64,000 nt of DNA. Origin: Thalassospiraceae bacterium LMO-JJ14. Its GTDB lineage: Bacteria; Pseudomonadota; Alphaproteobacteria; Rhodospirillales; Casp-alpha2. Shown piece after piece: positions 30,557 through 47,629 of this stretch. Numbering within the stretch: position 1 is the stretch's first letter; each line of letters begins with the position of its first letter. A model generated the notes under the pieces. That model made no database searches and was not told where the DNA came from. It saw only the letters and a program-made list of their open reading frames with translations. Both the position numbers and the translations under genes were made by a program. The DNA lies in assembly GCA_021555105.2 (NCBI GenBank), contig CP134604.1, positions 2,886,001 through 2,950,000 on the forward strand, given 5' to 3'.

Positions 30557-31168
30557 CTACTTTGCGACGCCAAGCACCTGATATGGCGGGCAATCATGCA
30601 TGCATGAATCAGCGTATGATTCTTTCGTCTTTCTATTGTCCATGTAAAATCCATCGACATTAGGCATTTCAATCCCGGTGATGCTGGTCTGATTTAATAT
30701 GAAATCCTTTGGCACGATATTATTGATGTACAAAACATACGAAGTGACAGAATAAACGTCTTCATCCGCCAAACTCTGCGGTGCCTGCATGGGCATTGTC
30801 CGCTTGATATAATCGAACAGTGTCGTCGCGAAGGGCCAGTAATTGCCGACTGTCCTGATGGGTCTGTCATCCAACAGCGTGCCGCTGCCGCTTATCAGTT
30901 TGGGCATATTACCTACCCCCTCGCCGAAGTCGCCGTGGCAGTGAGCGCATTTTTCGAAATAGACCGCTTCACCGTTTGAGACATTGCCGCTCCCCGGCGG
31001 CGCCCCGGCACCATTTGGCGCGACATCGATGTTCCAGGCACGGATCAGATCCGCAGAAGCGGCAGCGCCAATGCCATCGTATCGGGCTTCGCCGGCTTCC
31101 GCGCCGTGGCTGCCCACGATAGCGAGCCCCGTCAATCCACAGCGTATGATCCTAGCCCAAACGGACAT
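30557..31168 (-). CDS. soxD: SoxD, cytochrome c subunit of sulfane dehydrogenase (short, one haem)
   Basis: SoxD takes electrons from SoxC during six-electron oxidation of the sulfane sulfur bound to SoxY. The protein has 203 residues, with a signal peptide and a single haem motif CAHCH (residues 74-78); the FDYIKRTMPMQAPQSL segment can supply the Met ligand. Paracoccus SoxD is nearly twice as long with two haems, so this is the short form. The C-terminus has extra cysteines (SCMHDC). The ATG at 31168 lies inside the end of soxC (17-base overlap); a GTG at 31180 is also possible. Confidence 0.87.
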   Translation of the reverse strand: MSVWARIIRCGLTGLAIVGSHGAEAGEARYDGIGAAASADLIRAWNIDVAPNGAGAPPGSGNVSNGEAVYFEKCAHCHGDFGEGVGNMPKLISGSGTLLDDRPIRTVGNYWPFATTLFDYIKRTMPMQAPQSLADEDVYSVTSYVLYINNIVPKDFILNQTSITGIEMPNVDGFYMDNRKTKESYADSCMHDCPPYQVLGVAK

Positions 31169-32402: not shown

Positions 32403-32406
32403 CCAG

Positions 32407-32631
32407 TCAGGCCTTTTTGATCTGGAACGTAAATACGCCCGCGTCTTCGTTCCATTCCAACAGCTCATTGCCTGTTTTGCGGGTGAATGCCTCGAAGTCT
32501 TTCACCGCGCCGGGATCCGTCGCCAAAATTTCAAGAACCTGCCCTGCGGACATGTCTGCGAGTGCTTTTTTTGCCTTAACGATAGGGATAGGGCAGTTGA
32601 GCCCCTTTGTATCGAGCGTTTGGTCCGCCAT
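32407..32631 (-). CDS. tusA: TusA family sulfur carrier
   Basis: 74 residues with the TusA signature KGLNCPIPIVKAKKAL; Cys13 carries sulfane sulfur as a persulfide. In sulfur oxidisers TusA moves sulfur between rhodanese, DsrE-type proteins and the Dsr or sHdr complexes. It heads tusA-soxC-soxD and is divergent from the YeeE/YedE importer, a typical donor-carrier pairing. A sulfur motif lies in the shared upstream region. Confidence 0.95.
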   Translation of the reverse strand: MADQTLDTKGLNCPIPIVKAKKALADMSAGQVLEILATDPGAVKDFEAFTRKTGNELLEWNEDAGVFTFQIKKA

Positions 32632-32741: not shown

Positions 32742-32818
32742 ATAGTATCATGTGAAATCAAATTTTGAAGTCTTAAAATCGCAGGACACCGTGATTGTCC
32801 GCGACAGGCAGGAATAAA

Positions 32819-33922
32819 ATGATCGAATTTTCAGTCACCACGCAGGTGGCCTTACTTGGACTGCTGCTCGGTGGTATTTTTGGAGCAACGGCACACAGAA
32901 CAAATTTTTGTACAATGGGCGCCGTTTCCGATCTGGTCATGATGGATGACTGGAATCGCTTTCGCGCCTGGCTGCTAGCGATTGCCGTGGGCATTTTCGG
33001 CACGCAGGTTCTGCACCTCGCGGGCTATATTGACATCAACAACGCCATATATCTGACACCGAGCCTTGGCTGGCTGGGGGCGATTCTAGGCGGCCTCATG
33101 TTCGGCTTTGGCATGACCCAGGCAGGCGGGTGCGGCTCGAAAACACTTATTCGGCTCGGTGCGGGCAACCTCAAATCGCTGATCGTCGCGCTTATTCTGG
33201 GTGTCTTCGCCTACATGACGCTACGCGGCCTGATTGCGTTGGGGCGTACGGCGCTGGAGGGTGCTACCAATATAGATATGCTGACGATCGGTGCGAACAA
33301 TCAGGGCATCCCCGATGCACTCGCCGCCAGCGGCGTCATCGATATCGATACGGCACGTTTGCTCGTCAGCGCCATCGCGGTTCTGGGTCTGCTGTGGTTT
33401 TGCCTCAAGGATGCCGATTTCAGAGCCTCTAAACCCGATGTCATTGCCGGCATCGTCATCGGTCTGTGCGTTCCCGCCGGCTGGATCATCACCGGCATCG
33501 TCGGGTTCGACGAATTTGAGCCGACACAAATGGCATCGCTGACATTCGTTGCCCCTGTCGCCAACAGCATTCAGTACCTGATGACCTTCACCGGTTCGAC
33601 CATCGACTTCGGCATTTCCACCGTCGGCGGGGTTATACTCGGGTCCTTTATCTCGGCTAAGCTTGCCGGCGAGTTCAAGTTCGAATCGTTCGTCGGCACC
33701 GACGACATGCTGCGCCATATCGGTGGCGCGGCGTTGATGGGAATCGGTGGCGTGCTGGCGCTCGGATGTACCATTGGTCAGGGACTGACCGGAATGTCGA
33801 CGCTGGCCATCGGGGCTTTGCTGGCGTTCCTTTCAATCGTTGCCGGCGGCGTTCTCGGCATGAAGTACATCGAGGAAGGTTCGTTCGGCGGCGCCGTTGC
33901 CGCAATGATGGGCCGCGGATAA
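32819..33922 (+). CDS. YeeE/YedE family (TsuA-like) sulfur-compound importer
   Basis: 367 residues, about nine or ten transmembrane segments, with the conserved cysteine loops of the family: RTNFCTMGAVSDL near residues 26-38, GGCGSKTLIRLGAGNLKS near 105-122, and LALGCTIGQGLTGMS near 310-325. Well-studied members import thiosulfate through cysteine relay. It lies next to tusA, as is common. The ATG at 32819 follows AGGCAGGAATAAA; an in-frame start at 32795 is unsupported. A bidirectional terminator follows. Substrate (thiosulfate or another sulfane) is inferred. Confidence 0.9.
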   Translation: MIEFSVTTQVALLGLLLGGIFGATAHRTNFCTMGAVSDLVMMDDWNRFRAWLLAIAVGIFGTQVLHLAGYIDINNAIYLTPSLGWLGAILGGLMFGFGMTQAGGCGSKTLIRLGAGNLKSLIVALILGVFAYMTLRGLIALGRTALEGATNIDMLTIGANNQGIPDALAASGVIDIDTARLLVSAIAVLGLLWFCLKDADFRASKPDVIAGIVIGLCVPAGWIITGIVGFDEFEPTQMASLTFVAPVANSIQYLMTFTGSTIDFGISTVGGVILGSFISAKLAGEFKFESFVGTDDMLRHIGGAALMGIGGVLALGCTIGQGLTGMSTLAIGALLAFLSIVAGGVLGMKYIEEGSFGGAVAAMMGRG

Positions 33923-33943: not shown

Positions 33944-33975
33944 GAAAAAGGCCCGCAGATTGCGGGCCTTTTTGT
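33944..33975. terminator. Bidirectional terminator between the importer and lbpA
   Basis: AAAAAGGCCCGCA and TGCGGGCCTTTTT pair around GAT at 33945-33973. It serves the plus-strand importer gene and the minus-strand lbpA end of the shdr operon. Confidence 0.93.
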
Positions 33976-33995: not shown

Positions 33996-34436
33996 TCAGC
34001 CGCAGCCGGCGAACCCGTCTGCTTCCATCTTCGCCTCGTAAGGGGCTGCAACGTCGCTGCCGGCAACGAGATCGCCCCGCACCGAGTCCCAGTCTTCAGG
34101 CTTCAGGATGACAAGCCAACCCGCGTCGTAAGGGTCCCCGTTGATAATATCCGGTTGATCGACGACCGCCTGATTGATCTCGACGATCTCGCCCGCTGCA
34201 ATGGATTTTGCCGGCCCGACCCACTTTCCGGATTCGATGGTGGCGCAGGATTTCCCGGCCTTAACGCTACGTCCGGCTTTCTTGGGGGTGACCGCGACCA
34301 ACTGCCCGGCCATTGCTGCGGCAACCGCCGTCATGCCTATCTTGACGTTACCGTCGCCCATTTCCTTGAACCACACCTGATCTTCCACATGATAAAGCAG
34401 ATCGTCAGGCAGGTTACATCCCCTCACATTAGCCAT
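33996..34436 (-). CDS. lbpA: Lipoate-binding protein LbpA of the sHdr pathway
   Basis: 146 residues resembling the glycine-cleavage H protein, with the lipoyl-attachment Lys71 in the stretch CATIESGKWVGPAKS. Other features, VWFKEMGDGNVKIGMT and the C-terminal GCG, are typical of the LbpA group of sulfur oxidisers and not of GcvH. No gcvT or gcvP is nearby. LbpA is thought to carry sulfur on its lipoyl arm to the sHdr complex. The ATG at 34436 follows AAGGAGTTACGACCG. It is the last gene of the dsrE-shdr operon, with a terminator after it. The longer frame to 34511 runs into the preceding gene. Confidence 0.93.
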   Translation of the reverse strand: MANVRGCNLPDDLLYHVEDQVWFKEMGDGNVKIGMTAVAAAMAGQLVAVTPKKAGRSVKAGKSCATIESGKWVGPAKSIAAGEIVEINQAVVDQPDIINGDPYDAGWLVILKPEDWDSVRGDLVAGSDVAAPYEAKMEADGFAGCG

Positions 34437-34477
34437 CGGTCGTAACTCCTTTACTTCCAGTGCCGCGCACCACTGAT

Positions 34478-34891
34478 TTATTCTGCCGCATGGAGCGGCT
34501 TCGAGGAACAACAGAATTCACCAAGTCCCTCGACTTCCATCTTTCCGGATACGAACAGATACAGATGCATGGCGACAAGGGCCATCATCTGCAGCTTCGC
34601 CCGCTGCTGGTCTTCGTTCGCTTCCCGCTCAATCAGGTTATAATGATAAACGAGCTCGCGGCAGGTTTCACGGCAGGCGTTGAACGACGGCGACCCTTTG
34701 GCCCCTTGCCGGTGCAATGCCAGCAGCCGAAAGCCTTCCTTTTCATCCAGCGTCGGCTGTTCGCCGCGTCCGATAATCCAATGTTCCAGCACCGTCTCGC
34801 CAATCGAAACAAGCGTTTGAGCGCCGTGTTTCGCATCGCCTTCAGCGGCGGCGACGGAAATCGCCAGCTCAAGCTCGGACAGAGGCGTCAT
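34478..34891 (-). CDS. Small conserved protein of the sHdr operon, function unknown
   Basis: 137 residues, soluble and predicted mostly helical from its sequence, starting MTPLSELELAISVAAAEGD. It has a Cys pair near the C-terminus (GEFCCSSK) and other cysteines in CRETCREL. The start overlaps the shdrB2 stop by four bases (ATGA), so translation is coupled and the gene is real. It lies just before lbpA, so a helper role in the sHdr-LbpA complex is plausible, but nothing in the sequence identifies a domain. Confidence 0.8.
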   Translation of the reverse strand: MTPLSELELAISVAAAEGDAKHGAQTLVSIGETVLEHWIIGRGEQPTLDEKEGFRLLALHRQGAKGSPSFNACRETCRELVYHYNLIEREANEDQQRAKLQMMALVAMHLYLFVSGKMEVEGLGEFCCSSKPLHAAE

Positions 34892-35823
34892 ACGAACCCC
34901 CTGTCCTGCAGAAAGCCCATGGAGTCGGAGATATTTTCATGCACGCCGAGATCGCGGAGCGGCACGCCGAGCGCCATGCCGAGAAGCTGCGTGAAATACA
35001 GGATTTTCACGTTGGACTGAAAACCGAACCGCTTCTCGCCGCGGATCTGATGCATTTCCAGGCCCGAATGACAGGTCGGGCATTCGGTGGCAATAACCTC
35101 GGCACCCGAGGCCTCTGCCGCGCGGATGATATTGATCACCAGCTTGGTCGACATATCGGAATCGGAAAGCGTGTGCGCGCCGCCGCAGCATGCCGTCTTG
35201 AGCGGAAAATCCACGTTCTCCGCACCGGCTGCGGCAAGAAGATCGTCCATGAAGTGCGGCTGAGATGTCGACTCGCTCCCCGGCCCCTGATCCTTTTCAG
35301 GAAAAATGTGCCGTGGGCGGGTGTACATGCAACCGTAATAGTTGGCGACTTTAAGCCCCTTCAGTGAATTCTTGACGCGCGCCTTGAGGCCTTCTTCGCC
35401 GATACCTTCCTTGATCCAGTCGAGCGCATGGATGGTTTCTATCTGCCCCGCCTCATAGGTGCCGTGCCCTGCCTTGCCGGACAACCGGTCGACGACTTCC
35501 TTGCTCTCTTCGTCGTGTTCAAGATCGTATTCGGCTTTTTTAAGGTTGTGATAGCAGCCGTTGCACGGTGCCATAACGGTGTCGAAACCCATTTCATTGG
35601 CGGCTGTATTCATCACCCGCGAGGAAAGATAGGTCTGGATCTTCGGGTCGATGTTCTTGACTTCCATCGCGCCGCAGCAGTTCCAGTTATCGACCTCGGT
35701 CAACTCCATGCCGAGGTTCTTGCCGATCGCCTTTGTCGACGTATTGTAGGAATGCCCGGATCCTTCCAGCGCACAGCCAGGATAGTAGGCGACCTTTTGA
35801 TATTTTTTTGAGGTCTCGTTCAT
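34888..35823 (-). CDS. shdrB2: sHdrB2, CCG-domain subunit of the sulfur-oxidising heterodisulfide-reductase-like complex
   Basis: 311 residues with two cysteine-rich CCG domains: Cys17/Cys49-50/Cys87/Cys90 and Cys165/Cys212-213/Cys248/Cys251. These resemble HdrB, where such motifs bind unusual iron-sulfur clusters at the disulfide site. It probably acts on the sulfur-loaded lipoate of LbpA. The ATG at 35823 follows GGGAGAAGACG, six bases after the shdrC2 stop region. The complex is the cytoplasmic machine that produces sulfite from sulfane sulfur in these bacteria. Confidence 0.93.
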   Translation of the reverse strand: MNETSKKYQKVAYYPGCALEGSGHSYNTSTKAIGKNLGMELTEVDNWNCCGAMEVKNIDPKIQTYLSSRVMNTAANEMGFDTVMAPCNGCYHNLKKAEYDLEHDEESKEVVDRLSGKAGHGTYEAGQIETIHALDWIKEGIGEEGLKARVKNSLKGLKVANYYGCMYTRPRHIFPEKDQGPGSESTSQPHFMDDLLAAAGAENVDFPLKTACCGGAHTLSDSDMSTKLVINIIRAAEASGAEVIATECPTCHSGLEMHQIRGEKRFGFQSNVKILYFTQLLGMALGVPLRDLGVHENISDSMGFLQDRGFV

Positions 35824-35834
35824 CGTCTTCTCCC

Positions 35835-36584
35835 TCATTCGGCCGCTTGCGGCTGATCCAGTTTAAGCGCCTTGCGATGCTCGGCATCTTTTTCGGCAAC
35901 GTATTCCTCGATTGCGGCGCGGGCGCCGTCCCATCCCTTGGTGCGCGGACGGAGCACGCCCTGCATGCCCATTGCGAACAGCATCTTGACCGGCAGGTGA
36001 CGCAGCATGCGGCGCACCATTTCGATCAGCCAGTCCTGATTTAAGGATTGCTTGGTACGTGCAAAGAAGCCCCGGATGATCCGGCCTTCTTCTATCTTGC
36101 CCGTGGCGATAACTTGCGACGCGAACTCTTCATCAAAGTGCATCGATGGTGATTTCTCGGTGTGGCCCTTCAACTCGCACCAGTGCGACAACGCCTTCAT
36201 CACGCCTTCGGGATTGACGTCGCGCGGACAGGCATAGGTGCATTTATTGCAAGAAACGCACTGCCAGATGATGTCCTTGTCTCTAAGCAATTCATCTTCC
36301 ATGCCGAGACGCGCCAGATAAATCCAGTATCGGGGGTTAAAGTCGGGATTTACAGCGTTCACCGTACACGCGTTGGTGCACGATCCGCACTGCCAGCAGC
36401 GGTGTATGTATTCACCGCCGGGAAGTGCCGCGATTTCCTCCTGCATCTCCTCGTTATAGTCCCGAACGACGCGGGATTCGATGAAGGTACTCCAGTGTCC
36501 CGAAACATCCACACCGTCTATTTCCAGGTGTTCCTGTTCGATCAGGTTTTCGGGCCGGATCAGCGATTTCTCATGGATTGGCAT
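35835..36584 (-). CDS. shdrC2: sHdrC2, 4Fe-4S subunit of the sHdr complex
   Basis: 249 residues with two 4Fe-4S motifs, CWQCGSCTNAC (Cys63, 66, 69, 73) and CVSCNKCTYAC (Cys109, 112, 115, 119), as in HdrC. It would shuttle electrons between the FAD subunit and HdrB-like subunits. GAGGGAAGC lies upstream of the ATG. It sits between shdrH and shdrB2 and continues the operon without a gap. Confidence 0.94.
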   Translation of the reverse strand: MPIHEKSLIRPENLIEQEHLEIDGVDVSGHWSTFIESRVVRDYNEEMQEEIAALPGGEYIHRCWQCGSCTNACTVNAVNPDFNPRYWIYLARLGMEDELLRDKDIIWQCVSCNKCTYACPRDVNPEGVMKALSHWCELKGHTEKSPSMHFDEEFASQVIATGKIEEGRIIRGFFARTKQSLNQDWLIEMVRRMLRHLPVKMLFAMGMQGVLRPRTKGWDGARAAIEEYVAEKDAEHRKALKLDQPQAAE

Positions 36585-36602
36585 AAATGCTTCCCTCGCG
36601 GT

Positions 36603-37472
36603 TCAGTGCGTCGTCTCGTCGATGTCGAGTATAATCGGCCGGCCCTCAATGCCCTTGGCACGGGTCCGCCCGGTTTCGGGGTCGATGCCCTCCAGGCCAA
36701 GCATCCGGCGCGTATACTGAAGCGGATCCTCTGCCGCGGAAAAGTCCGTACGCAAATAACTGCCGCCCTGTTCACAGATGTAATCGGCGTAGATTTGCGC
36801 ACAAAGGATATCCACATACGCCATCACGTCCCGGAAGACCCCGTTATCCGAAAGATACTGGCTCAACTCTTCGCGCAGCATCAGGAACGTGTCGTAATTG
36901 TCCGGCACATCCAGCGTCATATGGTCGATATTCGGGTCATGCCATAATTCACGGATCACACCCGTGTTGGCCTTCACATCCCAGACCCACCTGTTCATCA
37001 GCGGATAACGTTCGGGCATCACGCCATGCAGGATTTCAGCGGCGAGATCACGAACCCAGCGATACCCCCGGCCATCCGGAAATTTCTCACAGAAACGGCG
37101 CACGGCGTCATCGCACTCGCTCGCGGCCTGCGCCTGGTCCAGAAGCGATGCCACGGCCGTCCTGATTGTTTCCATGCCCGAGGTGCCCGCTTCTTCGAGC
37201 CAGGGACCGATACGGCGGCGCACCGGCGCCATAAAAGCGACGACGCTGAGAAACGTATCGATATCCAGCGCGTCGATGCCGTCACGCTTGAAGACATCGG
37301 CGACGACCTCGGACTTGAACTGCACGCCCCTGACAAGAAATTCGATCCCGCCGACACCTTCCGATCTCGAAACCACGGTTTCGAGTGCCGCAGCGAGTTT
37401 CGGCCCATCCAGGTGCAGGACTGGCCGGCTGGTACTTGCGATCGGCTTTCTAGATAAGATCATCCCATCCAT
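36603..37472 (-). CDS. shdrH: sHdrH, hypothetical protein conserved in shdr operons
   Basis: 289 residues in the position always taken by the hypothetical gene of sHdr clusters, between shdrA and shdrC2. No known domain was recognised; it appears soluble, with a long helical central part (DTFLMLREELSQYLSDNGVF) and a C-terminal GIDPETGRTRAKGIEGRP. The start could be 37472 or the ATG three codons later. It is probably a structural or accessory subunit; that is only an inference from conserved synteny. Confidence 0.85.
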   Translation of the reverse strand: MDGMILSRKPIASTSRPVLHLDGPKLAAALETVVSRSEGVGGIEFLVRGVQFKSEVVADVFKRDGIDALDIDTFLSVVAFMAPVRRRIGPWLEEAGTSGMETIRTAVASLLDQAQAASECDDAVRRFCEKFPDGRGYRWVRDLAAEILHGVMPERYPLMNRWVWDVKANTGVIRELWHDPNIDHMTLDVPDNYDTFLMLREELSQYLSDNGVFRDVMAYVDILCAQIYADYICEQGGSYLRTDFSAAEDPLQYTRRMLGLEGIDPETGRTRAKGIEGRPIILDIDETTH

Positions 37473-37481
37473 CCGATGTTC

Positions 37482-38534
37482 TTATTCCGCGGCCTGAATT
37501 TTGTTGCCGTTGGCGACAGCCAGGGCCGCCAGGGCCGCTCCCTGACCCTGGGCAATGGAATCGTCGATCGTCTCGGGGCCCGTTGCGGCACCGGCCACGA
37601 ACACGCCTGCACGAGACGTTTCCGCCATCGAGCTGTAGGTATCCATGCGCTTGATATGCCCATGTTGTTGCAGCTCGACACCGAAGATCGATGCAATCAG
37701 GACGTTGTCCACATTCGGGTCCATGCCAATGGCGTGAACCACCATATCGAACGGCACCGTGATCGGGCGCTTGACCAGCGTGTCTTCGCCTTTGACGATC
37801 AGCTTGTTCCCGTCCGACGTCACCTCGGCGATCCGCGCCTTGATGTACTTGATCTTAAACTCTTCCTGGCTCTTCCAGTAATACGTGTCCTCATAAAGAC
37901 CGAATGTGCGAATATCCATGTAATAGATATAGACGTGACAGTCCGGCAGCTCTTCACGAATTTCCATGCCGAGGTTGGACGACACGGTGCAGCATATTTT
38001 GGAGCACCACTCACGGCCGATCTGCCGGTCACGCGAGCCGACACAAAGCAAAATTGCAACCCGCTTCGGTTTACGCCCATCCGACGGACACCTGACGCCC
38101 GCACCTGATGAAATCATCTGCTCGACCTGGGTCGTTGTGACGACATCGGGGAAGGTGCCGAAACCCCACTCGGGTTTGTTGACGGAATCGAAATGAGTGA
38201 ACCCCGTGCAGAGCACTGCCGTCGACGCGTTGATCGACTCGCCATTCGAAAATTGAGCCGTGAAATCACCAGGCGTACCGTCGAAGGCCTGTACCATGGT
38301 ATCCGTATAGACCTTTATCGAGCCGTTGCCGGTGACACGATCGACCATGCCGCCAATGGCATCCTTCGCCCATTCGCCGCTCGGGACCAGCTTTGCGTAA
38401 CCAGACAATATCGGCGTGCCGCCCAGGCGATCCGCCTTGTCGACCAGGACAACTTCCTGACCGACCGATGCCAAGGCATGTGCAGCAGAGAGCCCCGCCG
38501 GCCCGGCGCCGACAACAAGAACAGGTTTAGTCAT
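37482..38534 (-). CDS. shdrA: sHdrA, FAD and iron-sulfur subunit of the sHdr complex
   Basis: 350 residues with FAD motif VVGAGPAGLSAAHA (residues about 7-20) and the cysteine cluster CVGSRDRQIGREWCSKICC (Cys164, 177, 181, 182) that in HdrA binds a 4Fe-4S centre. It is much shorter than methanogen HdrA, lacking the extra ferredoxin domains, as expected for the sulfur-oxidising type. The ATG at 38534 follows GAGGAAATTGAGC; an in-frame TTG at 38549 is less likely. It is the electron-bifurcating-like core, but the physiological electron acceptor is not settled. Confidence 0.94.
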   Translation of the reverse strand: MTKPVLVVGAGPAGLSAAHALASVGQEVVLVDKADRLGGTPILSGYAKLVPSGEWAKDAIGGMVDRVTGNGSIKVYTDTMVQAFDGTPGDFTAQFSNGESINASTAVLCTGFTHFDSVNKPEWGFGTFPDVVTTTQVEQMISSGAGVRCPSDGRKPKRVAILLCVGSRDRQIGREWCSKICCTVSSNLGMEIREELPDCHVYIYYMDIRTFGLYEDTYYWKSQEEFKIKYIKARIAEVTSDGNKLIVKGEDTLVKRPITVPFDMVVHAIGMDPNVDNVLIASIFGVELQQHGHIKRMDTYSSMAETSRAGVFVAGAATGPETIDDSIAQGQGAALAALAVANGNKIQAAE

Positions 38535-38553
38535 GCTCAATTTCCTCAATCTT

Positions 38554-39903
38554 TTATTCAGCGGCCGCCTTAAAACCCGGCCCCGACGTAATCATGCGGC
38601 GCGGATCGTACAGATTTTCGCCATTACCCGCTTCGACTTCCTTGAGATAAGCCTCGAACTCGGCCTTCGATTTTTCCCAATCGATACCCATTTTCGCGAG
38701 CAGGGTCTCAACCGGTGAAGCATGCCAGTGCATTTGTGCGATCTTGTAAGGGTGTGCACCGCAAGCCAGCGCCGCAAATTGGCAATCTGCGACGACGGGC
38801 AGGGAAACACTCGATTTGTCGGACGCCTGGCTGATCCACTGGTTCTTGTCGAGCGTCGTGATGCAGCCGGTATCGTGGCCGATCATGACGTCGGATTTGG
38901 CTTCCTCGACAGCGACTCGGATTTTGCGGTCGATGGCAAACGAGCGGGTAAACTCTCGCTCGGAAATAATGTGACGGAAGCCGAAACCGCAGCAATCGTA
39001 CCATGTCGAATAGTCGATGACGTCTGCGCCCAGTTCCTGCATCAGGCCGGTCGACACCGCAACGCGGTTCCCTTCAAGAATATCATCGTCGTAGATCGCA
39101 TCCTCGGGGATCATCTTGTAGACGTGACAGGCCGGATGGACCGTGGCGCGGATATTGGAGACATCGATGGTCTGATGTTCCTTGATACGGTAGCGCATGG
39201 CGTGAAGCCATTCCGAGTAATGCACGATCTCTTCCGGGATCAGCAGCTTGCCGTCGACCAAACGGCCGAGTTTGCCGAGAATTTTCTTCACGCGCTCGCG
39301 CAATTCCGCGGAATGCAGCAGGAAGCCCCGAATTTCCTTATAATTGCCGAAAGACGTCCCGCAATGAACCAGCGGGTAATAATGGCCGCGGCCCTTACCC
39401 TCTGCTTCACCGGCGACGTAGGCCTGATGGAAATTACGGAGGAAAACGGCAGCCAGGCTCTCGACGTTGCCGATACCTGATCCATGGTAATTCCAGGCGG
39501 TGCAGGAGGTCTGGTCGGTCTCGTCCAGATACTCGATCCCCATCTGGTTCATCAGCCACAGCAGCGAGGTCGGATAGCCGGGAATATTACCGCACTGACC
39601 GCAGGATTTATGGTGCCACAACCGCGTTGTCGGGATTTTCTTTTCCCATCCGAACAGGGTGCGGAGCGTGATCGGCTCGTATTCATCGCGCATGCGATGA
39701 ACGATGATCTCGCCGTCCTTTTCAAGCTGCCACATGATGTCGCGGACATCCTCGACCCGGTCTTTGTTGGTCAGCATCGAGCGCTTGTCTACGCGCGCCT
39801 CAACCCACGAGGTGGCCGTCTGCGCCTGCTCGGGGCTGAGTTGAGCATCCCGCCATTCTGAACCGTGCCCGGTGAAACGTGTGTCGTCAGTTTGATCGCT
39901 CAT
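38554..39903 (-). CDS. shdrB1: sHdrB1, HdrB-like subunit of the sHdr complex
   Basis: 449 residues, larger than sHdrB2 because of an N-terminal extension of about 90. Conserved Cys sets include KSCGQCGNIPGY (Cys101, 104), TSCTAW, YDCCGFGFRH and GHDTGCITTLDK, together giving CCG-type cluster sites. It lies 20 bases before shdrA and is translated in the same operon, with AAAGGATGAGAAA before the ATG. The division of work between the two HdrB-like subunits is not known. Confidence 0.92.
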   Translation of the reverse strand: MSDQTDDTRFTGHGSEWRDAQLSPEQAQTATSWVEARVDKRSMLTNKDRVEDVRDIMWQLEKDGEIIVHRMRDEYEPITLRTLFGWEKKIPTTRLWHHKSCGQCGNIPGYPTSLLWLMNQMGIEYLDETDQTSCTAWNYHGSGIGNVESLAAVFLRNFHQAYVAGEAEGKGRGHYYPLVHCGTSFGNYKEIRGFLLHSAELRERVKKILGKLGRLVDGKLLIPEEIVHYSEWLHAMRYRIKEHQTIDVSNIRATVHPACHVYKMIPEDAIYDDDILEGNRVAVSTGLMQELGADVIDYSTWYDCCGFGFRHIISEREFTRSFAIDRKIRVAVEEAKSDVMIGHDTGCITTLDKNQWISQASDKSSVSLPVVADCQFAALACGAHPYKIAQMHWHASPVETLLAKMGIDWEKSKAEFEAYLKEVEAGNGENLYDPRRMITSGPGFKAAAE

Positions 39904-39954
39904 TTTCTCATCCTTTCGGTCGCCGCGCGCCTGTTTCGGGCGGGCAATTCCCTA

Positions 39955-40713
39955 TCAATCGTCGTCCTCGTCATCGTCCTGGTCTTCCAACCAGTCCTCA
40001 TAATCGTCACGCTTCTCGTCCATGATGTCCGAGATCACGTCGTACAGGTTTTCGTCGATTGTCTCGAGTTGCTCGAGAACACCGGTCATTTCCCAGATCG
40101 TATACAGTTCGACCGATGTCTTGAGGTTCACTTCCCAGGCCGTATCCGTGGTATTCAGGGTCGGCATGGGTATCGCCTGGCGCAGCAGTTTAAGCGGCGC
40201 ATCGACCTTCGAGATGTTCGGTCCCCAGTCCGGGAAGTGATCGGGCGTGATCATGTTCGGGGCAAGCTGGTTGCCGGTCGAAATCAGCTTCAGCATGACA
40301 CGGGAAAACGGCCGCAACACGTCCTTCGCGGACTGCATGCCATGCTTGATGGCAACTTCCCGCATGATCATCACCAAACCGCCCGGAGAGTTCCCGAAGG
40401 GGCAACGCGCGGCACAGGTATAGCATTGCGCGCAGGACCAGATTTTCTCCTGCATGGCATCGTGAATGCCTTCGAGATTCTCGGTCCATAGCAACTGCAC
40501 GATCTCTCGTGGACTGAAATCGTAATAATGAGCTGCCGGACAGGTCGCCGTACAGATCCCGCAATTCAGGCATCCGTTCAGTTCATGGTCATAACGCATG
40601 TCCGCCTGAATATCCTGGAACACCTTTTCCATGGTGTCGTAATCGACCGCCGGCTCCGCAGAGACGGGGTCGCCTATGAATTCCTGAATACGGCTTCCGC
40701 TTGCGTGGCTCAT
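39955..40713 (-). CDS. shdrC1: sHdrC1, 4Fe-4S subunit of the sHdr complex
   Basis: 252 residues with two 4Fe-4S motifs, CLNCGICTATC (Cys48, 51, 54, 58) and CAQCYTCAARC (Cys94, 97, 100, 104). The C-terminus is a highly acidic tail (WLEDQDDDEDDD). It is the first hdr gene of the operon after the DsrE-like gene, nine bases downstream of it, with GAGGATGCACAC as ribosome site. Confidence 0.94.
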   Translation of the reverse strand: MSHASGSRIQEFIGDPVSAEPAVDYDTMEKVFQDIQADMRYDHELNGCLNCGICTATCPAAHYYDFSPREIVQLLWTENLEGIHDAMQEKIWSCAQCYTCAARCPFGNSPGGLVMIMREVAIKHGMQSAKDVLRPFSRVMLKLISTGNQLAPNMITPDHFPDWGPNISKVDAPLKLLRQAIPMPTLNTTDTAWEVNLKTSVELYTIWEMTGVLEQLETIDENLYDVISDIMDEKRDDYEDWLEDQDDDEDDD

Positions 40714-40723
40714 GTGTGCATCC

Positions 40724-41104
40724 TCAATACGTCAGAACCTTGGCGTCATCGTTCTCCATCACCTCTTCGATGACATGCGCGCCGCCGACAATCCCCGAAC
40801 ATTCAGGGATCAGGTCGTCCTCGGTCATGTCGAAAAGATCAAGGTTCGGCGAACAGCAGTAAAAAGTGACACCCGCCTCATGCGCGTCCTTGATGAAATC
40901 GTAAACGGTCTTGGGGGAGCCTTCCTTGACGACAAGACTTTCAGCAAAGCCCTTTTTCATAAGCTGCCCTGAGGTTGCCGTGCATATGACCTCGACCTCG
41001 TAATCCATCGCCGCTGCGACGGTGGCCTGGAAAAACGGCGCACCGAGCTCCTCACCGTTACGAGGATCGGTGTTCACCATAATGATCACGAGTTTTTCGG
41101 CCAT
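40724..41104 (-). CDS. DsrE-family sulfur-transfer protein at the head of the shdr operon
   Basis: 126 residues of the DsrE/DsrF-like fold: N-terminal KLVIIMVNTDPRNGEEL, and cysteines at 41, 83, 84 (FYCCSPN) and 102 (PECSG). In sulfur oxidisers DsrE-type proteins receive sulfur from TusA and pass it on; DsrE3-like forms serve the sHdr route. The ATG at 41104 follows GGGAGGCATT. It precedes shdrC1 by 10 bases, so the operon probably reads dsrE-shdrC1B1AHC2B2-hyp-lbpA. Which DsrE subclass it belongs to needs alignment. Confidence 0.85.
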   Translation of the reverse strand: MAEKLVIIMVNTDPRNGEELGAPFFQATVAAAMDYEVEVICTATSGQLMKKGFAESLVVKEGSPKTVYDFIKDAHEAGVTFYCCSPNLDLFDMTEDDLIPECSGIVGGAHVIEEVMENDDAKVLTY

Positions 41105-41174
41105 AATGCCTCCCAAGCTGTTTTTGTTTTTACGTTAGGCACATAATCACAAAGGAGACGCGTCAAAGCAATAA

Positions 41175-41198
41175 CAAATTCACTTTTTCGAATGTGTT
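41175..41198 (-). promoter_or_regulatory. Sulfur-regulon motif upstream of the dsrE-shdr-lbpA operon
   Basis: The minus strand reads ACACATTCGAAAAAGTGAAT, flanked by TAACA/TGTTA-type ends that make an imperfect palindrome. It lies 71-94 bases before the dsrE-like start and downstream of the gat gene, so the shdr operon can have its own promoter. Confidence 0.45.
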
Positions 41199-41246
41199 AT
41201 TTTGCGTCAATGCAACCCGCAATACCGATACTTGCAGGTCTTGGCA

Positions 41247-41969
41247 TTAGGGCTTGTCAGGTTTCGGCTGCATCAGCCCTGTGATCTGAATAACCCCGGT
41301 CATCATTTCGACCAGCGCATCTTCGATCGCCGGCGTTTTTTCGCTCAGCGCCTGCAGACCCGGCGCAATGACGTCTGGCGATTCTTCGAACTCCATCACC
41401 AAGTCTTCTATCATAGCGCGTTTTGCCCCCGGATGCCCAAGAAAACCCAAAGACGTCCCGCCCAGTTGAAACACGAGCGGCGCACCCGACGCATCAGCCG
41501 CCAGCACATCCGCATATGAGGGCAGAACCGGACGGTCGCGCATATAGATCGCCATCGGAAATCTATCCGGCATATACCCATTGAGCGCGTCTTGCTTGCA
41601 GCGCACGGCCTCGACCACATCGAATGTCAGCGGTGTCTTTTCAACCTTTCCACCGCCGCCGAGCGCAACGATCAGGGCGCCGAGACCGATGCCGATTTGC
41701 GGAATCCCAAGGGCCAGGCACTCGTGTGACAAGGCAACTTCGTTCGCCAGCGACGGCAAGTCCCGATCGCCCGCCGCCCCCCATGGACCGCCGCCAAGAA
41801 ATATGACGCCATCGACGAAGCGCGCCGACGGCGGCAATTTGCCGTCCGTCGTGTGCGGGCGAATATAGGTAAAGCGGATACCGCGCCCTTCAAAGTGATC
41901 TTCCATGCGCCCGAGGTATTCGCTATCGGTGTGCTGGATGACGTAAAGGTTGCGTTCCGGGCGTATCAT
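41247..41969 (-). CDS. Glutamine-amidotransferase-like protein lacking the catalytic Cys and Glu
   Basis: 240 residues of the class I glutamine amidotransferase fold (DGVIFLGGGPWGAAGD, GIPQIGIGLGALIVALGG). The nucleophile elbow, normally GxCxG, reads GIGLG with Gly95 in the place of Cys, and the downstream HPE dyad reads GHPG (His179, Gly181). It therefore should not hydrolyse glutamine. It is the last gene of the lipoate-assembly operon, its start overlapping the ligase gene by four bases. Similar genes occur with lbpA clusters. A structural or binding role for LbpA maturation is likely but unknown. Confidence 0.85.
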   Translation of the reverse strand: MIRPERNLYVIQHTDSEYLGRMEDHFEGRGIRFTYIRPHTTDGKLPPSARFVDGVIFLGGGPWGAAGDRDLPSLANEVALSHECLALGIPQIGIGLGALIVALGGGGKVEKTPLTFDVVEAVRCKQDALNGYMPDRFPMAIYMRDRPVLPSYADVLAADASGAPLVFQLGGTSLGFLGHPGAKRAMIEDLVMEFEESPDVIAPGLQALSEKTPAIEDALVEMMTGVIQITGLMQPKPDKP

Positions 41970-43030
41970 GAAACACCCCCCGCCGCCGCTTCACGGATGA
42001 CACCGGCCAAAGCATCACCGGGCACCGTAATCGCCCCGCCGTCAGCAAGCACAGCGTCGATCGTGTCGCCGATGTTTTCCAGCGGTGCATCCTTCAGCGC
42101 CGCTTCCAGGTCAAAAACGAGGCGCGGCGGATTGGCGAAAAAATCACCGGTGATGAGCACTTGCTGAATACGCTGCTGGCCCCGGTGCAGGCGCAAATAA
42201 ACCGTTACGCTTCCACCGGGCGTGGTGATGCTCGCCGATTGGAAGCCGCTGTCGCTTTCCGGATCGTCGATTTCGGCGACAAAGTCATCCGTTCCGATTT
42301 CCTCGTCATGGATCTCCCGCGCCCGCGCCCATTCACGCTCGCTCACCTCTCCATCCTCGGCGCGGAGGCCGAGACCTGCTTCGAAGCCCTGCAACAATGC
42401 CTGCTTGGCCGCATCGATGCCCGGCGTCCTGTCGCCGAGCAAGGCACGCAGTGTGACAACCCGCTGTGCCGCGGAATCAAGGTCACGCTTGGCCAGCTTG
42501 GCTTGTGGCACCTTCAGCGCCTGCGCCATCACTTCCGGGTTGGTGTCGATCAGCAACGTCCCCTGATAGAACAGCACATCGCCATCGAAAAAGCCGCCGG
42601 TCCCGGATATTTTGCGGCCATCGACCTCGATATCATTACGTGGCCTGAAACGTGCATCGATCCCGAGCGTGCGCAGCCCTTCGGCCGCGGCGGTGCAAAT
42701 AAGCTCGGCCGTGGCCCCGAGATCCGGTGCCGGCAGCGACGCACGATGGAAAACCAGTTCCCAACCCAGTTGCCCTTCATCGAAGAATATACTGCCGCCG
42801 CCGGTGATCCGCCGCCCGAGCCCGATACCATTGGCGGCGCAGTAATCGACGTCGACTTCACGGCTTAAAGCCTGGTGCCGGCCGACCAGCGCAGTCGGCT
42901 TGAAGCGCAGAAAGCGGATGGTGTCGGGAATTTCACCGGACGCCCGCGCATCGATCAGCGCCTGATCGAAAGCAATGTTGAGCCGCCCGTGCTCGACCCC
43001 AGTGTCGATCACGCGGAAGATTTTACTCAT
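41966..43030 (-). CDS. sLpl(AB): Lipoate/octanoate-protein ligase of the sHdr type
   Basis: 354 residues, LplA-like: RRITGGGSIFFDEGQLGWE (residues about 73-91) is the acyl-adenylate signature, and RNDIEVDGRKISGTGG includes the catalytic Lys140. A C-terminal LplB-like domain from about residue 250 follows. It would adenylate and attach octanoate or lipoate to LbpA Lys71. Its clustering with two radical SAM genes fits the dedicated LipS1/LipS2 lipoylation route. It follows lipS2 by 10 bases. Confidence 0.9.
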   Translation of the reverse strand: MSKIFRVIDTGVEHGRLNIAFDQALIDARASGEIPDTIRFLRFKPTALVGRHQALSREVDVDYCAANGIGLGRRITGGGSIFFDEGQLGWELVFHRASLPAPDLGATAELICTAAAEGLRTLGIDARFRPRNDIEVDGRKISGTGGFFDGDVLFYQGTLLIDTNPEVMAQALKVPQAKLAKRDLDSAAQRVVTLRALLGDRTPGIDAAKQALLQGFEAGLGLRAEDGEVSEREWARAREIHDEEIGTDDFVAEIDDPESDSGFQSASITTPGGSVTVYLRLHRGQQRIQQVLITGDFFANPPRLVFDLEAALKDAPLENIGDTIDAVLADGGAITVPGDALAGVIREAAAGGVS

Positions 43031-43040
43031 CTTGCGCGGC

Positions 43041-44300
43041 TCAGTTCACGGTTTTCGGAAAACCCATTTGGCGGCGGACTTTCCGAATATCCGTCTTATT
43101 GGGTTGGAACGGGAAACTCGCAATATCGCTTGGCGGAGAGTCGCCGTACGGGCGGTCACAGGCGGATATGTCCTCCTGGAATTTACCCGGGCAGCCAGAG
43201 GTCCGGAACGGGAGGCCGGTATCGATGATGCCGTCCAGTTCGGCCTTCGGCAGGCCGAAATCGCTGACCCGGCCATGTTCGTCGAAGCTCATGTGCTCGA
43301 GCCGCACATTACAGTAATCGATGAGGTAGCGCGCCATCTGTACACGGCGCCATTGATCGCGGGGCGTCGCCGGAAGGTGGTCCATCAGCGAGCCTTTTTC
43401 AGGGAAGAAACAGAACATATGACTGTGTCCCCCCATATCGCGCAGGTCCTGGACGACCGAAAGAACATCGTGTTCGGTCTCACCCATGCCAACGATCAGA
43501 TGCGCACCGAATTTTTCCTTGCCGAAAATGTCACGCGCATCGTTGAGGATTTCCCAGTACTTCTTCCAGGTGTGCGGCGACTGCACGCCCTTACCCCGAG
43601 TGCGGTCGAAAAGCGTCGGTGTCGCCGCGTCCAGGGCAACGGTAAAGATATCGGCGCCGAGACCGTGCAGTGTTGCGACATCGTCTCTCTGCATGGTCGT
43701 CGGGTTCGATAAAATCGACACCGGCACTGTTTTCGGATCGATCCGGTCGGTCCAGGCCTTGAGCACGGATACCGTATCCGCATCCGAGTTCGGATGCGTG
43801 ATCATGCTGATGCACATCCGATGGAACGGCGTGTTCTCGCCATCCGCTGCGACTTTTTCAATAATTTCCGCGACCGGTACCGACGGCCAGTCGACGCGGA
43901 TAAAGTTACGGTCGGCATAATCACGATCGGCTTCACGATGGCGGGCCAGACCGCAATAGGCACAATTCGCGCGGCAGCCTTCGGGATACGTCAGCAGAAG
44001 ATTGAGACACCGCGTACATTCGCAACGGTACATCTTGCCGGCCATGATCCCGAGCGTGATCGCCGCCGCCGTCGACATCTGCACGTATTCAGGCGAGCGC
44101 ATATCCGGCGTCTGGATATTGTTGTTGGGCAAATAGACGCCGCTCGGCGTCGCCGCCTGCGACTTGACCCTACCCCCGTTGCGGAGTTCAGCGGGCGTTT
44201 TATCCGGGCTGCGCGGCGCCATCTCGTCATAGGCATTGAAGTCCATGCCTTTCGCCGTTTTGTCTCCAGGCATTTTGCCCTCGGGCTTTAAACAGGTCAT
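43041..44300 (-). CDS. lipS2: LipS2, radical SAM lipoyl synthase component
   Basis: 419 residues. The radical SAM site is CRANCAYC (Cys109, 113, 116) of the CxxxCxxC type, with extra cysteines at 93, 95 and 98 (YRCECTRC) that could bind an auxiliary cluster. With LipS1 it is thought to insert the two sulfurs into octanoyl-LbpA. The ATG at 44300 overlaps the preceding gene stop (ATGA) and follows GGGGAAACGC; the longer frame to 44339 is not needed. The conserved C-terminus runs to DIRKVRRQMG. Confidence 0.9.
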   Translation of the reverse strand: MTCLKPEGKMPGDKTAKGMDFNAYDEMAPRSPDKTPAELRNGGRVKSQAATPSGVYLPNNNIQTPDMRSPEYVQMSTAAAITLGIMAGKMYRCECTRCLNLLLTYPEGCRANCAYCGLARHREADRDYADRNFIRVDWPSVPVAEIIEKVAADGENTPFHRMCISMITHPNSDADTVSVLKAWTDRIDPKTVPVSILSNPTTMQRDDVATLHGLGADIFTVALDAATPTLFDRTRGKGVQSPHTWKKYWEILNDARDIFGKEKFGAHLIVGMGETEHDVLSVVQDLRDMGGHSHMFCFFPEKGSLMDHLPATPRDQWRRVQMARYLIDYCNVRLEHMSFDEHGRVSDFGLPKAELDGIIDTGLPFRTSGCPGKFQEDISACDRPYGDSPPSDIASFPFQPNKTDIRKVRRQMGFPKTVN

Positions 44301-45406
44301 GCCGCGTTTCCCCTTACCAAAGTCGTTTCGTCGTTCCAATATTCTTCGTATGCAATCCAGCCGCGCCGGAAATCCGCCGCCGTTGCCTCACCGCTGCCAA
44401 GGGCGCCGAGCAATTCGCACCGACGCCGCACCGCCCTGTTCAAGGCCGGATCGAAAATGGCGGCAAGTTCACTTTCAAAATCGTCAAGGCTGTCTTCGTC
44501 GCCGTCCAGCCATCCAACCGCTGCTTCCCCGGCGAGCCCGCCGGAGATCACCGCCGACGCAATTCCGCCACCCGTCACCGGATTGGCAAGACCGCATGCG
44601 TCGCCGCAAAGTAAAACCGCCGTGTCCCCGAGCATGGCATAACTGAAAAGCCGTCCACCGACCGGGATTGCGCCGCCGGTATAAGACAACACCTCCGCGC
44701 CGACGCGCCCCTGGGCGACGAGATCTTCGTGGAGTTCGTTCAGGTAGTCCTTCAATACGGTGCGGGCACACGGGATCACGCCCGCGCCCAGGTTCGCAAC
44801 GTCGCCCCGCGGGAACAACCAGGCGTACCCGCCTGGCAGTTGTTCGCTAAGGAATATATCCGTGGCGTCGTGGGCGCGAAGCAAAGGCACCGTCAACTGG
44901 CGCGTCTCCACCATGTCGGTATTAACTGCACCGATTGCCGCGCCGACACATGAACGCGGGCCATCGCCGCCGATCAGTACCGGGGCTTTCAGGGTCTGGC
45001 CATCAGAAAGGTGCACAGCACCATCCTCTGCGATGGCTGCGATCTTGACCCCGAACCGGCAATCGCTCCCCGCATGGATGGCGTCCTCGACAAGCCGGCG
45101 GTCGAACGCTTCCCGGCTGATCATACGGCCCGGGAAATTCTCCGTCCGCTCGCATGTCTCGCCTTCGATAAACGTTTCCATGGCGTTGATCCGCTGGCGC
45201 GTAACGGCATCCAGTTCGCCAAGTTCCTGAGATACCATGGTCGGAATGAATTCAGCGCATTGCACCGGCATCCCGGCGCGGCGTTTACGTTCGAGCGCGA
45301 TAACGCGCTTGCCCTCCTTCGCCGCCGCCGCTGCAGCGCGCGCGCCGGCCGGCCCCAGACCGGCGACAATTACATCAGCGTCAAAGTTTTCACTTACGCC
45401 GCGCAT
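44297..45406 (-). CDS. Geranylgeranyl-reductase-like FAD oxidoreductase of the lipoate operon
   Basis: 369 residues. FAD motif IVAGLGPAGARAAAAAA at residues about 13-29, the family's second motif GDACGLANPVTGGGIASA, and a GGYAWLFPRGDVANLG stretch place it in the geranylgeranyl reductase/BchP-like group. It is wedged between lipS1 and lipS2 with overlaps at both ends. The corresponding gene in other such clusters has been called lipT, as I recall. It may supply electrons to the radical SAM lipoyl synthases. A lipid role is unlikely here. Confidence 0.8.
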   Translation of the reverse strand: MRGVSENFDADVIVAGLGPAGARAAAAAAKEGKRVIALERKRRAGMPVQCAEFIPTMVSQELGELDAVTRQRINAMETFIEGETCERTENFPGRMISREAFDRRLVEDAIHAGSDCRFGVKIAAIAEDGAVHLSDGQTLKAPVLIGGDGPRSCVGAAIGAVNTDMVETRQLTVPLLRAHDATDIFLSEQLPGGYAWLFPRGDVANLGAGVIPCARTVLKDYLNELHEDLVAQGRVGAEVLSYTGGAIPVGGRLFSYAMLGDTAVLLCGDACGLANPVTGGGIASAVISGGLAGEAAVGWLDGDEDSLDDFESELAAIFDPALNRAVRRRCELLGALGSGEATAADFRRGWIAYEEYWNDETTLVRGNAA

Positions 45407-46431
45407 GAAGACCCTTTCTCAAGGCTCAGACTGCCGCCGATCTTGATCGAGCAGCACGCATGTTCCTGATGATGCGCACGCCCTAACGCCTGCGCTAACG
45501 CTGCCGTACCGTCGGCAGGAAAAGCAATGCCATCCAGACCGGCCATGACGGCATAGGCATCGGTGACACGTTTGTGCATACCGGCAGGACGCGCGCACCC
45601 TAACAACACTTGCCGGTCGGGCAGCCTGCGACGCGCTTCCAGGAATACATGGCCGACGTCGGATGTGGGTGTCGTCACGAAGGTCCGGTTCTTGGCATAA
45701 AACGGCATGACGACGACCAGGACCAATGCATGCACATCGTGGCGCGAGACGATGTCGAGAGCGTTTTCCTCACCCAGCAATTCACCGTAGTGAAGGCCGA
45801 TCACGATATGCGGCACGATCTCCATGGACGTCGAGACCAACGCCGCAAGGGTCGCTTCGAAATCTTCTACGGGACGGTCGAGATGATAGACGTCGCGGAT
45901 GGTTTCCTGTGCGCCGATCACATCCATCATCGCCGTATCCACGCCGGCGCTTTCCATCAGCTTCGCACGTTTCTCATCAAGCAACGCGGTGTGGATTGCG
46001 ACCTTAAGGTCCGGGTAATCGCGTTTCAGGCCTTCTATCACCGGATAAAACCGCTCGTAAGCAATCTCGTTTTGCCGGTTGGACCCGCCTGAGAGCAGGA
46101 AGCCCTTTAAATCCTGCAGCATGATGAGGTCTCGGACTTTCTGATCCAGCATTTCGGGAGACGTTGCCGGAATCATGGGCTCGAGTATTTTGGCTTCGCA
46201 ATGATCACACATCAGCGCACAGCCGCCGGCGGTGATCGAAAATGCAGGGAAACTGTTCTTCGAACAGCCTTTCATCTCGGCGGATTCGAAATCCTTGAAG
46301 GTCGGTGTCGAGAAACGGATCGGCCGCGAGAGTGCAAGTGCCTGTTCACGCTCGAAAGCATTCACAAGATCACGGTCGAACTCGGCGTCCTCGTATTCTT
46401 CAATCGCCGAAACGGCGTCAATCCAGGCCAT
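45394..46431 (-). CDS. lipS1: LipS1, radical SAM lipoyl synthase component
   Basis: 345 residues with radical SAM cysteines CALMCDHC (Cys71, 75, 78) after a 70-residue leader, plus other cysteines at 56 and the C-terminal CCSIK and SSCAA that could hold a second cluster. It is the first gene of lipS1-FAD reductase-lipS2-ligase-gat. The product is thought to introduce sulfur into octanoyl-LbpA together with LipS2, replacing the classic LipA. The ATG overlaps no upstream gene, and a sulfur motif lies 30-50 bases in front. Confidence 0.9.
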   Translation of the reverse strand: MAWIDAVSAIEEYEDAEFDRDLVNAFEREQALALSRPIRFSTPTFKDFESAEMKGCSKNSFPAFSITAGGCALMCDHCEAKILEPMIPATSPEMLDQKVRDLIMLQDLKGFLLSGGSNRQNEIAYERFYPVIEGLKRDYPDLKVAIHTALLDEKRAKLMESAGVDTAMMDVIGAQETIRDVYHLDRPVEDFEATLAALVSTSMEIVPHIVIGLHYGELLGEENALDIVSRHDVHALVLVVVMPFYAKNRTFVTTPTSDVGHVFLEARRRLPDRQVLLGCARPAGMHKRVTDAYAVMAGLDGIAFPADGTAALAQALGRAHHQEHACCSIKIGGSLSLEKGSSCAA

Positions 46432-46507: not shown

Positions 46508-47629
46508 TCAAACGACTTCTCTCCAATCGCTTCCAGTGTCACCGATCAATGCGGCGACTTCTTCGCGCACCGGCGCTTTGTTTGGTGCGTCATCCAGCCG
46601 CTCCCGCCAGGCTTGATCGATGTCTTCTTCGTCAACCAGATCGCATTCGATTTCGTCGAACCGAACCTTGATTTTCTCCGGCACGGGCCATGGCGGCGTC
46701 CTGCCAGAAAGCCGCCCCCAGAGCCCCGACCAGCAACGTGCCACGGTCCACGGATTGTACCCGCCGCCACCAAGAACGACGGCGCCGGGAACCCGTTCGG
46801 TGACAGCTGTGACCGCATCCCAGAGCGCAACATTCGAGAGCATCATACCCGAGAGCGGATCCCCGGCCAACGCGTCGGCACCGCACGTGATCACGGCGAC
46901 ATCGGGTTTGAGTTCCTCGATCATCGGCAGAACGGCGCCCGACATCAACGCCGCCAGTTCGCAGTCGTTGAAGCCCTTCGGAACAGGATAATTGTAGGCA
47001 CCGGCTCCCCTGCCGCCATGCGCGGTCCCCGTCCCGGGCCAGCGTGCGCGCTCATGAATAGAGAGCGTGACGACGCGCGGCTCATCCAGGAACGCGGCCT
47101 CGACCCCATCACCATGGTGGGCATCGAGATCAAGATAGAATATCGACCCCGCACCGCCGTCCAGCAATGTCATGATCGCCATGACCGGATCGTTGAAGTA
47201 ACAGAAACCGTGCGCATGGTCCGGCATGCCATGATGGGTGCCGCCTGCGGGGTTGAAAGCCACGCAACCAGCAAGCGCTTTTTCAGCCGCCAGAATAGAG
47301 CCGCCGCAAGTTGTCCGGGCGCGCTGTTCCAGACCTTCGAAAACCGGGTTTTCCATGGTTCCCAGTTGATACCGCACGCGGTCGTTTTCTTCCGCCCGCC
47401 CTGCCATGGCGACCCGTTTCACGGCCTCAAGATAATCGCGGTCATGGAACCGCAGCAGCGCCTTGTCATCGGCCATCGGACTGTCGAGATAATTTTCATC
47501 GAGCCAGGACATCGCCTCGCAAATCTCGAGCACGAGACCCACTCTTGGAATCGCCAAAGGGTGGTTGGCGCCGAAACCGGGACGGCGATAAATGTCACCG
47601 CCGACAAAAAACGGCCCGGCTGTTTTCAT
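46508..47629 (-). CDS. Histone-deacetylase-like / AcuC-like amidohydrolase
   Basis: 373 residues. The zinc deacetylase fold is shown by FNPAGGTHHGMPDHAHGFCYFND, DLDAHHGDGVEAAF and CGADALAGDPLSG, which supply the His pair and the Asp/His/Asp zinc ligands. It should cleave an acyl-amide. Bacterial relatives include acetoin-utilisation proteins and polyamine deacetylases, so the substrate is open. The start overlaps the upstream AurF-like gene stop by four bases. It is the last gene of the LLM-AurF-HDAC unit. Confidence 0.85.
   Translation of the reverse strand: MKTAGPFFVGGDIYRRPGFGANHPLAIPRVGLVLEICEAMSWLDENYLDSPMADDKALLRFHDRDYLEAVKRVAMAGRAEENDRVRYQLGTMENPVFEGLEQRARTTCGGSILAAEKALAGCVAFNPAGGTHHGMPDHAHGFCYFNDPVMAIMTLLDGGAGSIFYLDLDAHHGDGVEAAFLDEPRVVTLSIHERARWPGTGTAHGGRGAGAYNYPVPKGFNDCELAALMSGAVLPMIEELKPDVAVITCGADALAGDPLSGMMLSNVALWDAVTAVTERVPGAVVLGGGGYNPWTVARCWSGLWGRLSGRTPPWPVPEKIKVRFDEIECDLVDEEDIDQAWRERLDDAPNKAPVREEVAALIGDTGSDWREVV

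Follow-up and report, generated by a model that had tools for sequence, protein, structure and literature searches.

A type I sHdr-LbpA2 sulfur-oxidation gene cluster with its own lipoate-assembly operon in Thalassospiraceae bacterium LMO-JJ14, and the sHdrI and LipX genes within it

Introduction

Does the sHdr-LbpA gene cluster of Thalassospiraceae bacterium LMO-JJ14 encode a complete cytoplasmic route for sulfur oxidation, and what might its most obscure proteins contribute to that route? The cluster occupies positions 33996-46431 of a 64,000-nucleotide stretch of contig CP134604.1 (assembly GCA_021555105.2, positions 2,886,001 to 2,950,000 of the forward strand), which we call the window and in which all positions are given unless marked otherwise. 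In Hyphomicrobium denitrificans, sHdr-LbpA is needed to oxidize sulfane sulfur to sulfite (PMC6067878, PMC10332631), and SoxT1A is needed as well. Thiosulfate oxidation in that organism almost stopped on deletion of lbpA2, and it also almost stops without sLpl(AB), when LbpA2 occurs only in its apo form (PMC10332631). Neither the system nor its gene order is new, both having been published (PMC6067878, PMC10332631, PMC11582611). Its presence here means one more alphaproteobacterial lineage with the capacity for an established system, and the interest of the locus is limited to the observations on LipX and sHdrI.

Results and discussion

A complete sHdr-LbpA2 cluster with a dedicated lipoate-assembly operon

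The 14 named genes of the cluster are intact minus-strand open reading frames (ORFs), contiguous or overlapping, in a 3.89 Mb single-contig genome (Table 1), at the positions given in an earlier note made from the DNA sequence. They are arranged as lipS1-lipT-lipS2-sLpl(AB)-lipX followed by dsrE-shdrC1-B1-A-H-C2-B2-shdrI-lbpA2, with only two promoter-sized gaps, one of 76 bp (very AT-rich) upstream of lipS1 and one of 142 bp upstream of dsrE. ORFs and family matches confirm what that note had described, a run from a dsrE-like gene to lbpA with lip genes upstream on the same strand. The comparison of synteny that it had proposed shows an identical order in both segments of the H. denitrificans cluster, lipS1-lipT-lipS2-slpl(AB)-lipX (PMC10332631) and dsrE-hdrC1B1A-hyp-hdrC2B2-hyp-lbpA (PMC6067878). 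Because this order is published, the note's view of sHdr-LbpA with LipS1/LipS2 lipoylation as a described route is supported too. The two organisms also share the genes themselves, the ATGA overlap of slpl(AB) and lipX, and the gaps upstream of lipS1 and dsrE (PMC6067878, PMC10332631, PMC11582611), whereas in LMO-JJ14 soxT is convergent with lbpA, no ArsR-type sHdrR gene was observed beside shdr, and aprAB and sat are found in the window. Thioalkalivibrio sp. K90mix has the same lipoate-assembly enzyme set and the same sHdr core (PMC10332631).

A type I sHdr is defined by the presence of shdrC1B1AHC2B2 in one cluster (PMC11582611). These genes form a single syntenic cluster here, in which shdrC2 and shdrB2 are separate ORFs and there is no fused shdrB3. 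The GcvH-like LbpA carries the lipoyl lysine and is distinct from the true GcvH of the genome. Genes for LipS1, LipS2, and sLpl(AB) lie together near lbpA, with the radical S-adenosylmethionine (SAM) CxxxCxxC motifs and the ligase lysine intact. Indeed, wherever Fe-S and active-site residues were checked, in sHdr subunits, LbpA, and Lip enzymes alike, they are intact, and to this extent the "full working version" of the system proposed in the earlier note stands, with its support at the level of sequence. Among related sequences, the residues kept include Lys71 of LbpA2, the lipoyl lysine in the motif ESGKWVGP (78/78), Lys140 of sLpl(AB) (36/36), 11 cysteines of LipS2 (31/31), 10 cysteines of sHdrB2 (74/74), nine of the 10 cysteines of sHdrB1 (57/57), and the Cys83-Cys84 pair of DsrE (57/57). 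Because the genome encodes LipA and the true GcvH elsewhere and has a single LbpA, the lip operon appears to be a dedicated route. Together, gene content, order, and intact motifs give us high confidence that the interval encodes all of a type I sHdr-LbpA2 system for sulfur oxidation in the cytoplasm, along with a lipoate-assembly operon of its own.

Bacterial and archaeal genomes were scanned with an alignment of sHdrI, which identified 249 relatives, and the loci of the best 80 were fetched. The gene order recurs in ~80 proteobacterial loci, far beyond chance. Counting for each gene only loci whose contig reaches far enough, the related loci contain shdrB2 (76/76), lbpA (76/76), shdrH (69/69), shdrB1 (60/60), and dsrE (55/56), as well as lipX (43/49) and the ligase gene (36/47). 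Conversely, sHdrI is present in 13 of 14 shdrB1-positive genomes from samples of the class and phylum, and in each of the family's eight shdrB1-positive genomes. Both shdrB1 and shdrI are absent from all seven other genomes of the genus and present in 5 of 14 genera of the family; this patchy occurrence would reflect gain by transfer or repeated loss. In the gammaproteobacterial loci L014-L085 (mostly Woeseiaceae), lipS1 abuts lipS2 with no lipT between them, so that LipT is either dispensable or encoded elsewhere in those loci.

Table 1. Positions and supporting matches of the cluster genes and of associated features in the window. E, expect value; pLDDT, predicted local distance difference test score.
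Feature	Position	Strand	Basis or remark
tusA, sulfur carrier	32407..32631	-	PF01206 E 3e-24
YeeE/SoxT1-like sulfur importer	32795..33922	+	PF04143 E 9e-68; TsuA E 9e-33
Terminator hairpin, 13 pairs	33945..33973	.	Strong; after lbpA, closing the cluster; between convergent lbpA and yeeE/soxT
lbpA2, GcvH-like lipoate-binding protein	33996..34436	-	PF01597 E 1.5e-33
shdrI, small helical protein with CxxxC and C-terminal FCCSS tail	34478..34891	-	Named in PMC11582611
shdrB2, two complete CCG motifs	34888..35838	-	HdrB family match E 3.5e-45
shdrC2, two 4Fe-4S motifs	35835..36584	-	HdrC-like family match
shdrH, helical protein	36603..37472	-	AlphaFold2 pLDDT 86; in 69/69 loci testable
shdrA, FAD / Fe-S subunit	37482..38534	-	Match to 6TJR (solved H. 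denitrificans HdrA-like protein) E 2.9e-180
shdrB1, CCG-domain protein	38554..39903	-	HdrB model E 2e-31
shdrC1, two 4Fe-4S motifs	39955..40713	-	HdrC model E 1e-25
dsrE3C-like sulfurtransferase	40724..41104	-	PF13686 E 7.2e-12
ATTC-N8-GAAT palindrome, candidate operator of SqrR/SoxR/sHdrR-type repressor	41178..41193	.	Perfect; ~74 bp upstream of dsrE start
lipX, class-I glutamine-amidotransferase-like, without catalytic Cys or Glu	41247..41969	-	NF005458 E 1.9e-15; profile against solved glutamine amidotransferases E 2.1e-13
sLpl(AB), lipoate/octanoate:protein ligase	41966..43030	-	TIGR00545 E 4.5e-45; RRITGGG motif
lipS2, radical SAM lipoyl synthase part 2	43041..44300	-	NCBIfam LipS2 E 3.2e-54; ATGA overlap with lipT
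lipT, FAD-dependent oxidoreductase, geranylgeranyl-reductase superfamily	44297..45406	-	TIGR02032 E 1.1e-51; position as in H. denitrificans
lipS1, radical SAM lipoyl synthase part 1	45394..46431	-	NCBIfam LipS1 E 2.5e-54; CxxxCxxC at residue 71

Invariant cysteines of sHdrI and its constant position in the cluster

The small gene at 34478 and the gat-like gene had been singled out in the earlier note as the least understood parts of the locus. Both are uncharacterized, but both already have names, sHdrI and LipX, and sHdrH is equally obscure, with no match in family searches and a model for which no close solved fold was found (best Z 4.0). sHdrH is also the least conserved core protein, at about 50% identity compared with 75-85% for most others. 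sHdrI has been described only as soluble and cytoplasmic, with an "unknown function" (PMC11582611). Its gene lies between shdrB2, which it overlaps by 4 bp, and the single lbpA. Cys73, Cys127, and Cys128 are found in 80/80 sequences and Cys77 in 66/80. The AlphaFold2 model is a confident helical bundle with a mean pLDDT of 91, which drops to ~50 for the last residues including the Cys-Cys pair, and the C-terminal tail is probably flexible according to this model. No match to sHdrI was found in a search of 72,556 plasmids or with PADLOC.

The helices of the sHdrI model are arranged like those of HEPN-like bundles, with Z 12.9 for the HEPN domain of sacsin (3o10) and Z 11.7 for TT1696 (1ufb), but helical bundles can be expected to match this well by chance, and the best Foldseek E, 0.027, is not significant. 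A role as an HEPN RNase was rejected on account of this chance-level fold match and the lack of evidence of an HEPN RNase site: the highly conserved R55-x4-H60 is, by structural alignment, in the wrong helix for an HEPN RNase site.

In the single shdr cluster found without sHdrI, at locus L132, the space between shdrB2 and lbpA2 is taken by an LbpA1-like gene and a second DsrE-like gene, and the part of that cluster that was read gave no match to lipX. L132 is similar in this to Thioalkalivibrio sp. K90mix, which differs from LMO-JJ14 in having two LbpA proteins and a lipoate set described without lipX (PMC10332631). A single LbpA is encoded at each of the 80 sHdrI loci. This counter-example suggests that sHdrI does the job done elsewhere by LbpA1/DsrE. 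Because L132 holds LbpA1-like and DsrE-like genes in the slot of shdrI while the sHdrI loci have a single LbpA, we tentatively suggest that sHdrI could act as a small accessory protein, with its flexible Cys-Cys tail serving as a relay for sulfur or electrons between LbpA2 and sHdr. There is also a substantial chance, if short of an even one, that sHdrI is not a relay but an assembly or structural subunit of sHdr, which binds sHdrB2 or delivers an Fe-S cluster through its cysteines. The position of the gene directly after shdrB2 and its overlap with it would fit such a subunit, as would the predicted helical bundle and the CxxxC and CC motifs, which could hold a cluster, but one related cluster does without sHdrI and Cys77 is not universal. 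The invariant cysteines of sHdrI and its fixed genomic slot offer a direct mutational test of the route of sulfur or electrons to and from the lipoyl arm of LbpA2.

The sulfur pathway extends beyond the cluster

Genes for sulfur metabolism reach beyond 33996-46431: the window also holds SoxT/YeeE, TusA, a rhodanese (at 28676), aprAB, and sat, and soxB lies a short way past its edge. The YeeE/SoxT1-like gene is convergent with lbpA both here and in eleven related loci. The left end of the window encodes SoxX and SoxY, and a Blh-related metallo-beta-lactamase protein is encoded at 29430. The genes for AprA, AprB, and Sat (54495-56860 and 59457-60731) are on the minus strand. The membrane-protein-like ORF at 56903-57745, for which a family search gave no match, may encode an AprM-like anchor. 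From this gene set, sulfane sulfur from Sox reactions would enter the cell through the SoxT/YeeE importer, and TusA and DsrE3C would pass it to the sHdr complex. The complex would then oxidize the sulfur to sulfite while it is bound to the lipoyl arm of LbpA2, and AprAB and Sat would carry the sulfite on to sulfate. To equip LbpA2 for this role, sLpl(AB) would attach octanoate or lipoate, and LipS1/LipS2 would insert two sulfurs with electrons probably supplied by LipT. In this way Sox, the importer, TusA, sHdr, AprAB, and Sat together would take thiosulfate to sulfate.

A SoxC equivalog (31152-32468, minus strand; 617.8 bits against a cut-off of 420) is encoded next to the sHdr cluster. Its partner at 30557-31180 (minus strand) is a single-heme cytochrome c and not an evident SoxD. 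Cytoplasmic sulfur oxidation is reported to be missing from alphaproteobacteria whose Sox system is complete (PMC11582611); this genome may combine a complete Sox system with the cytoplasmic route, or the SoxC-like protein may be a sulfite dehydrogenase. The periplasmic Sox system with this neighboring SoxC-like dehydrogenase could also oxidize thiosulfate fully, leaving sHdr as a minor or relict path, given that SoxX, SoxY, and SoxB are encoded in the same chromosome region, that soxC is 1.5 kb from lbpA, and that other members of the genus lack shdrB1. We consider this very unlikely, because a relict would not keep the cofactor residues that are intact in sHdr, LbpA, and the Lip enzymes, because TusA, DsrE, and the importer are retained too, and because an evident SoxD is missing.

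LipX has lost the catalytic residues of glutamine amidotransferases

LipX appears in the literature as a "putative glutamine amidotransferase". The profile match to solved glutamine amidotransferases (GATases; Table 1) shows that LipX is homologous with the class-I enzymes (PRK07053 and PDB 9xfs, 3m3p, and 1o1y) and hence has their fold, but it differs from them in lacking the catalytic Cys and Glu. Where the nucleophilic Cys would be, 43 of 44 LipX sequences have Gly and one has Asp; the position of the triad Glu is Gly in 44/44; and the triad His is retained in only 28/44, so that no Cys-His-Glu triad is left, although the glycine-rich loops are retained. With the catalytic Cys and Glu lost and the His partly lost, LipX is, judged from these sequences, almost certainly not a glutaminase, and its name is probably misleading. 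That LipX is a working GATase, supplying ammonia or amidating a lipoylation intermediate, is scarcely credible despite the profile match and the retained loops, given the absence of both the Cys and the Glu in 44/44 sequences and the ability of the Thioalkalivibrio set to modify LbpA in E. coli without lipX (PMC10332631).

Instead, LipX is likely to be a non-catalytic GATase-fold protein, a binding or scaffold protein that engages a substrate or partner in the maturation or use of LbpA2. When the Thioalkalivibrio genes lipS1-slpl(AB)-lipT-lipS2 modify LbpA in E. coli, the second sulfur insertion is inefficient (PMC10332631), which leaves room for missing helpers. In some loci lipX keeps its place beside dsrE without having the ligase gene as a neighbor. 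The lack of catalytic residues in all relatives examined changes what should be tested for this protein. It is conceivable, but we think it unlikely, that LipX and sHdrI define a sub-architecture of the sHdr pathway in which they together replace the LbpA1 and extra DsrE of Thioalkalivibrio-type clusters.

Several points weigh against the readings given above. Because sHdrI was the criterion for choosing the 80 loci, some of the uniformity of their arrangement is built in, and the independent test is the sample based on shdrB1. The presence, order, motifs, and conservation of the genes are observed, but that the pathway works in this particular organism is read from its DNA. For LipX, loss of the Cys does not exclude another activity. 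The role suggested for sHdrI rests on conservation and a predicted tail, and the exchange with lbpA1-dsrE was seen in one genome.

Regulation and gene boundaries

Binding of the sHdrR repressor was tested in H. denitrificans on the fragments that precede lipS1 and dsrE3C (PMC12423496), and ATTC-N8-GAAT is the recognition site deduced for SqrR (PMC9774250). A perfect copy of this palindrome occurs in 7 of 57 dsrE upstream regions compared with 0.14 expected from shuffles, an excess that is inflated by related sequences. Because 1.5 perfect sites are expected in the whole window, the copy upstream of dsrE in LMO-JJ14 is only suggestive of an operator. The neighborhood of shdr showed no ArsR-type sHdrR gene, and a SoxR-like one is found ~40 kb away by the sox genes. 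An ArsR-family regulator gene (L121:13191-13541, genome 2881190-2881540) lies close to soxB and to thioredoxin-like and CcdA-like genes, and another perfect site occurs in its vicinity. Cys30 and Cys96 of the encoded regulator are placed as in SqrR/SoxR/sHdrR.

The start of lbpA is ATG 34436, nine bases after AAAGGAG, and not TTG 34511, while dsrE starts at ATG 41104 behind GGGAGG and not at TTG 41116. From their homologs, shdrA probably starts at 38534 (the ORF extends to 38549), and the start of lipS2 is inferred to be at 44300 (the longest ORF extends to 44339). Beyond the 76 bp upstream of lipS1 lies an overlapping three-gene operon (46508-49550, minus strand) for a histone-deacetylase-like hydrolase, an AurF-type N-oxygenase, and a luciferase-like monooxygenase. 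This operon was rejected as part of the pathway, as none of its three genes occurs in the 80 related loci. On the other side of the cluster, 22702-28639 contains a phosphonate uptake operon (PhnC, PhnD, and two PhnE) with a phosphonate-type alcohol dehydrogenase and a LysR regulator.

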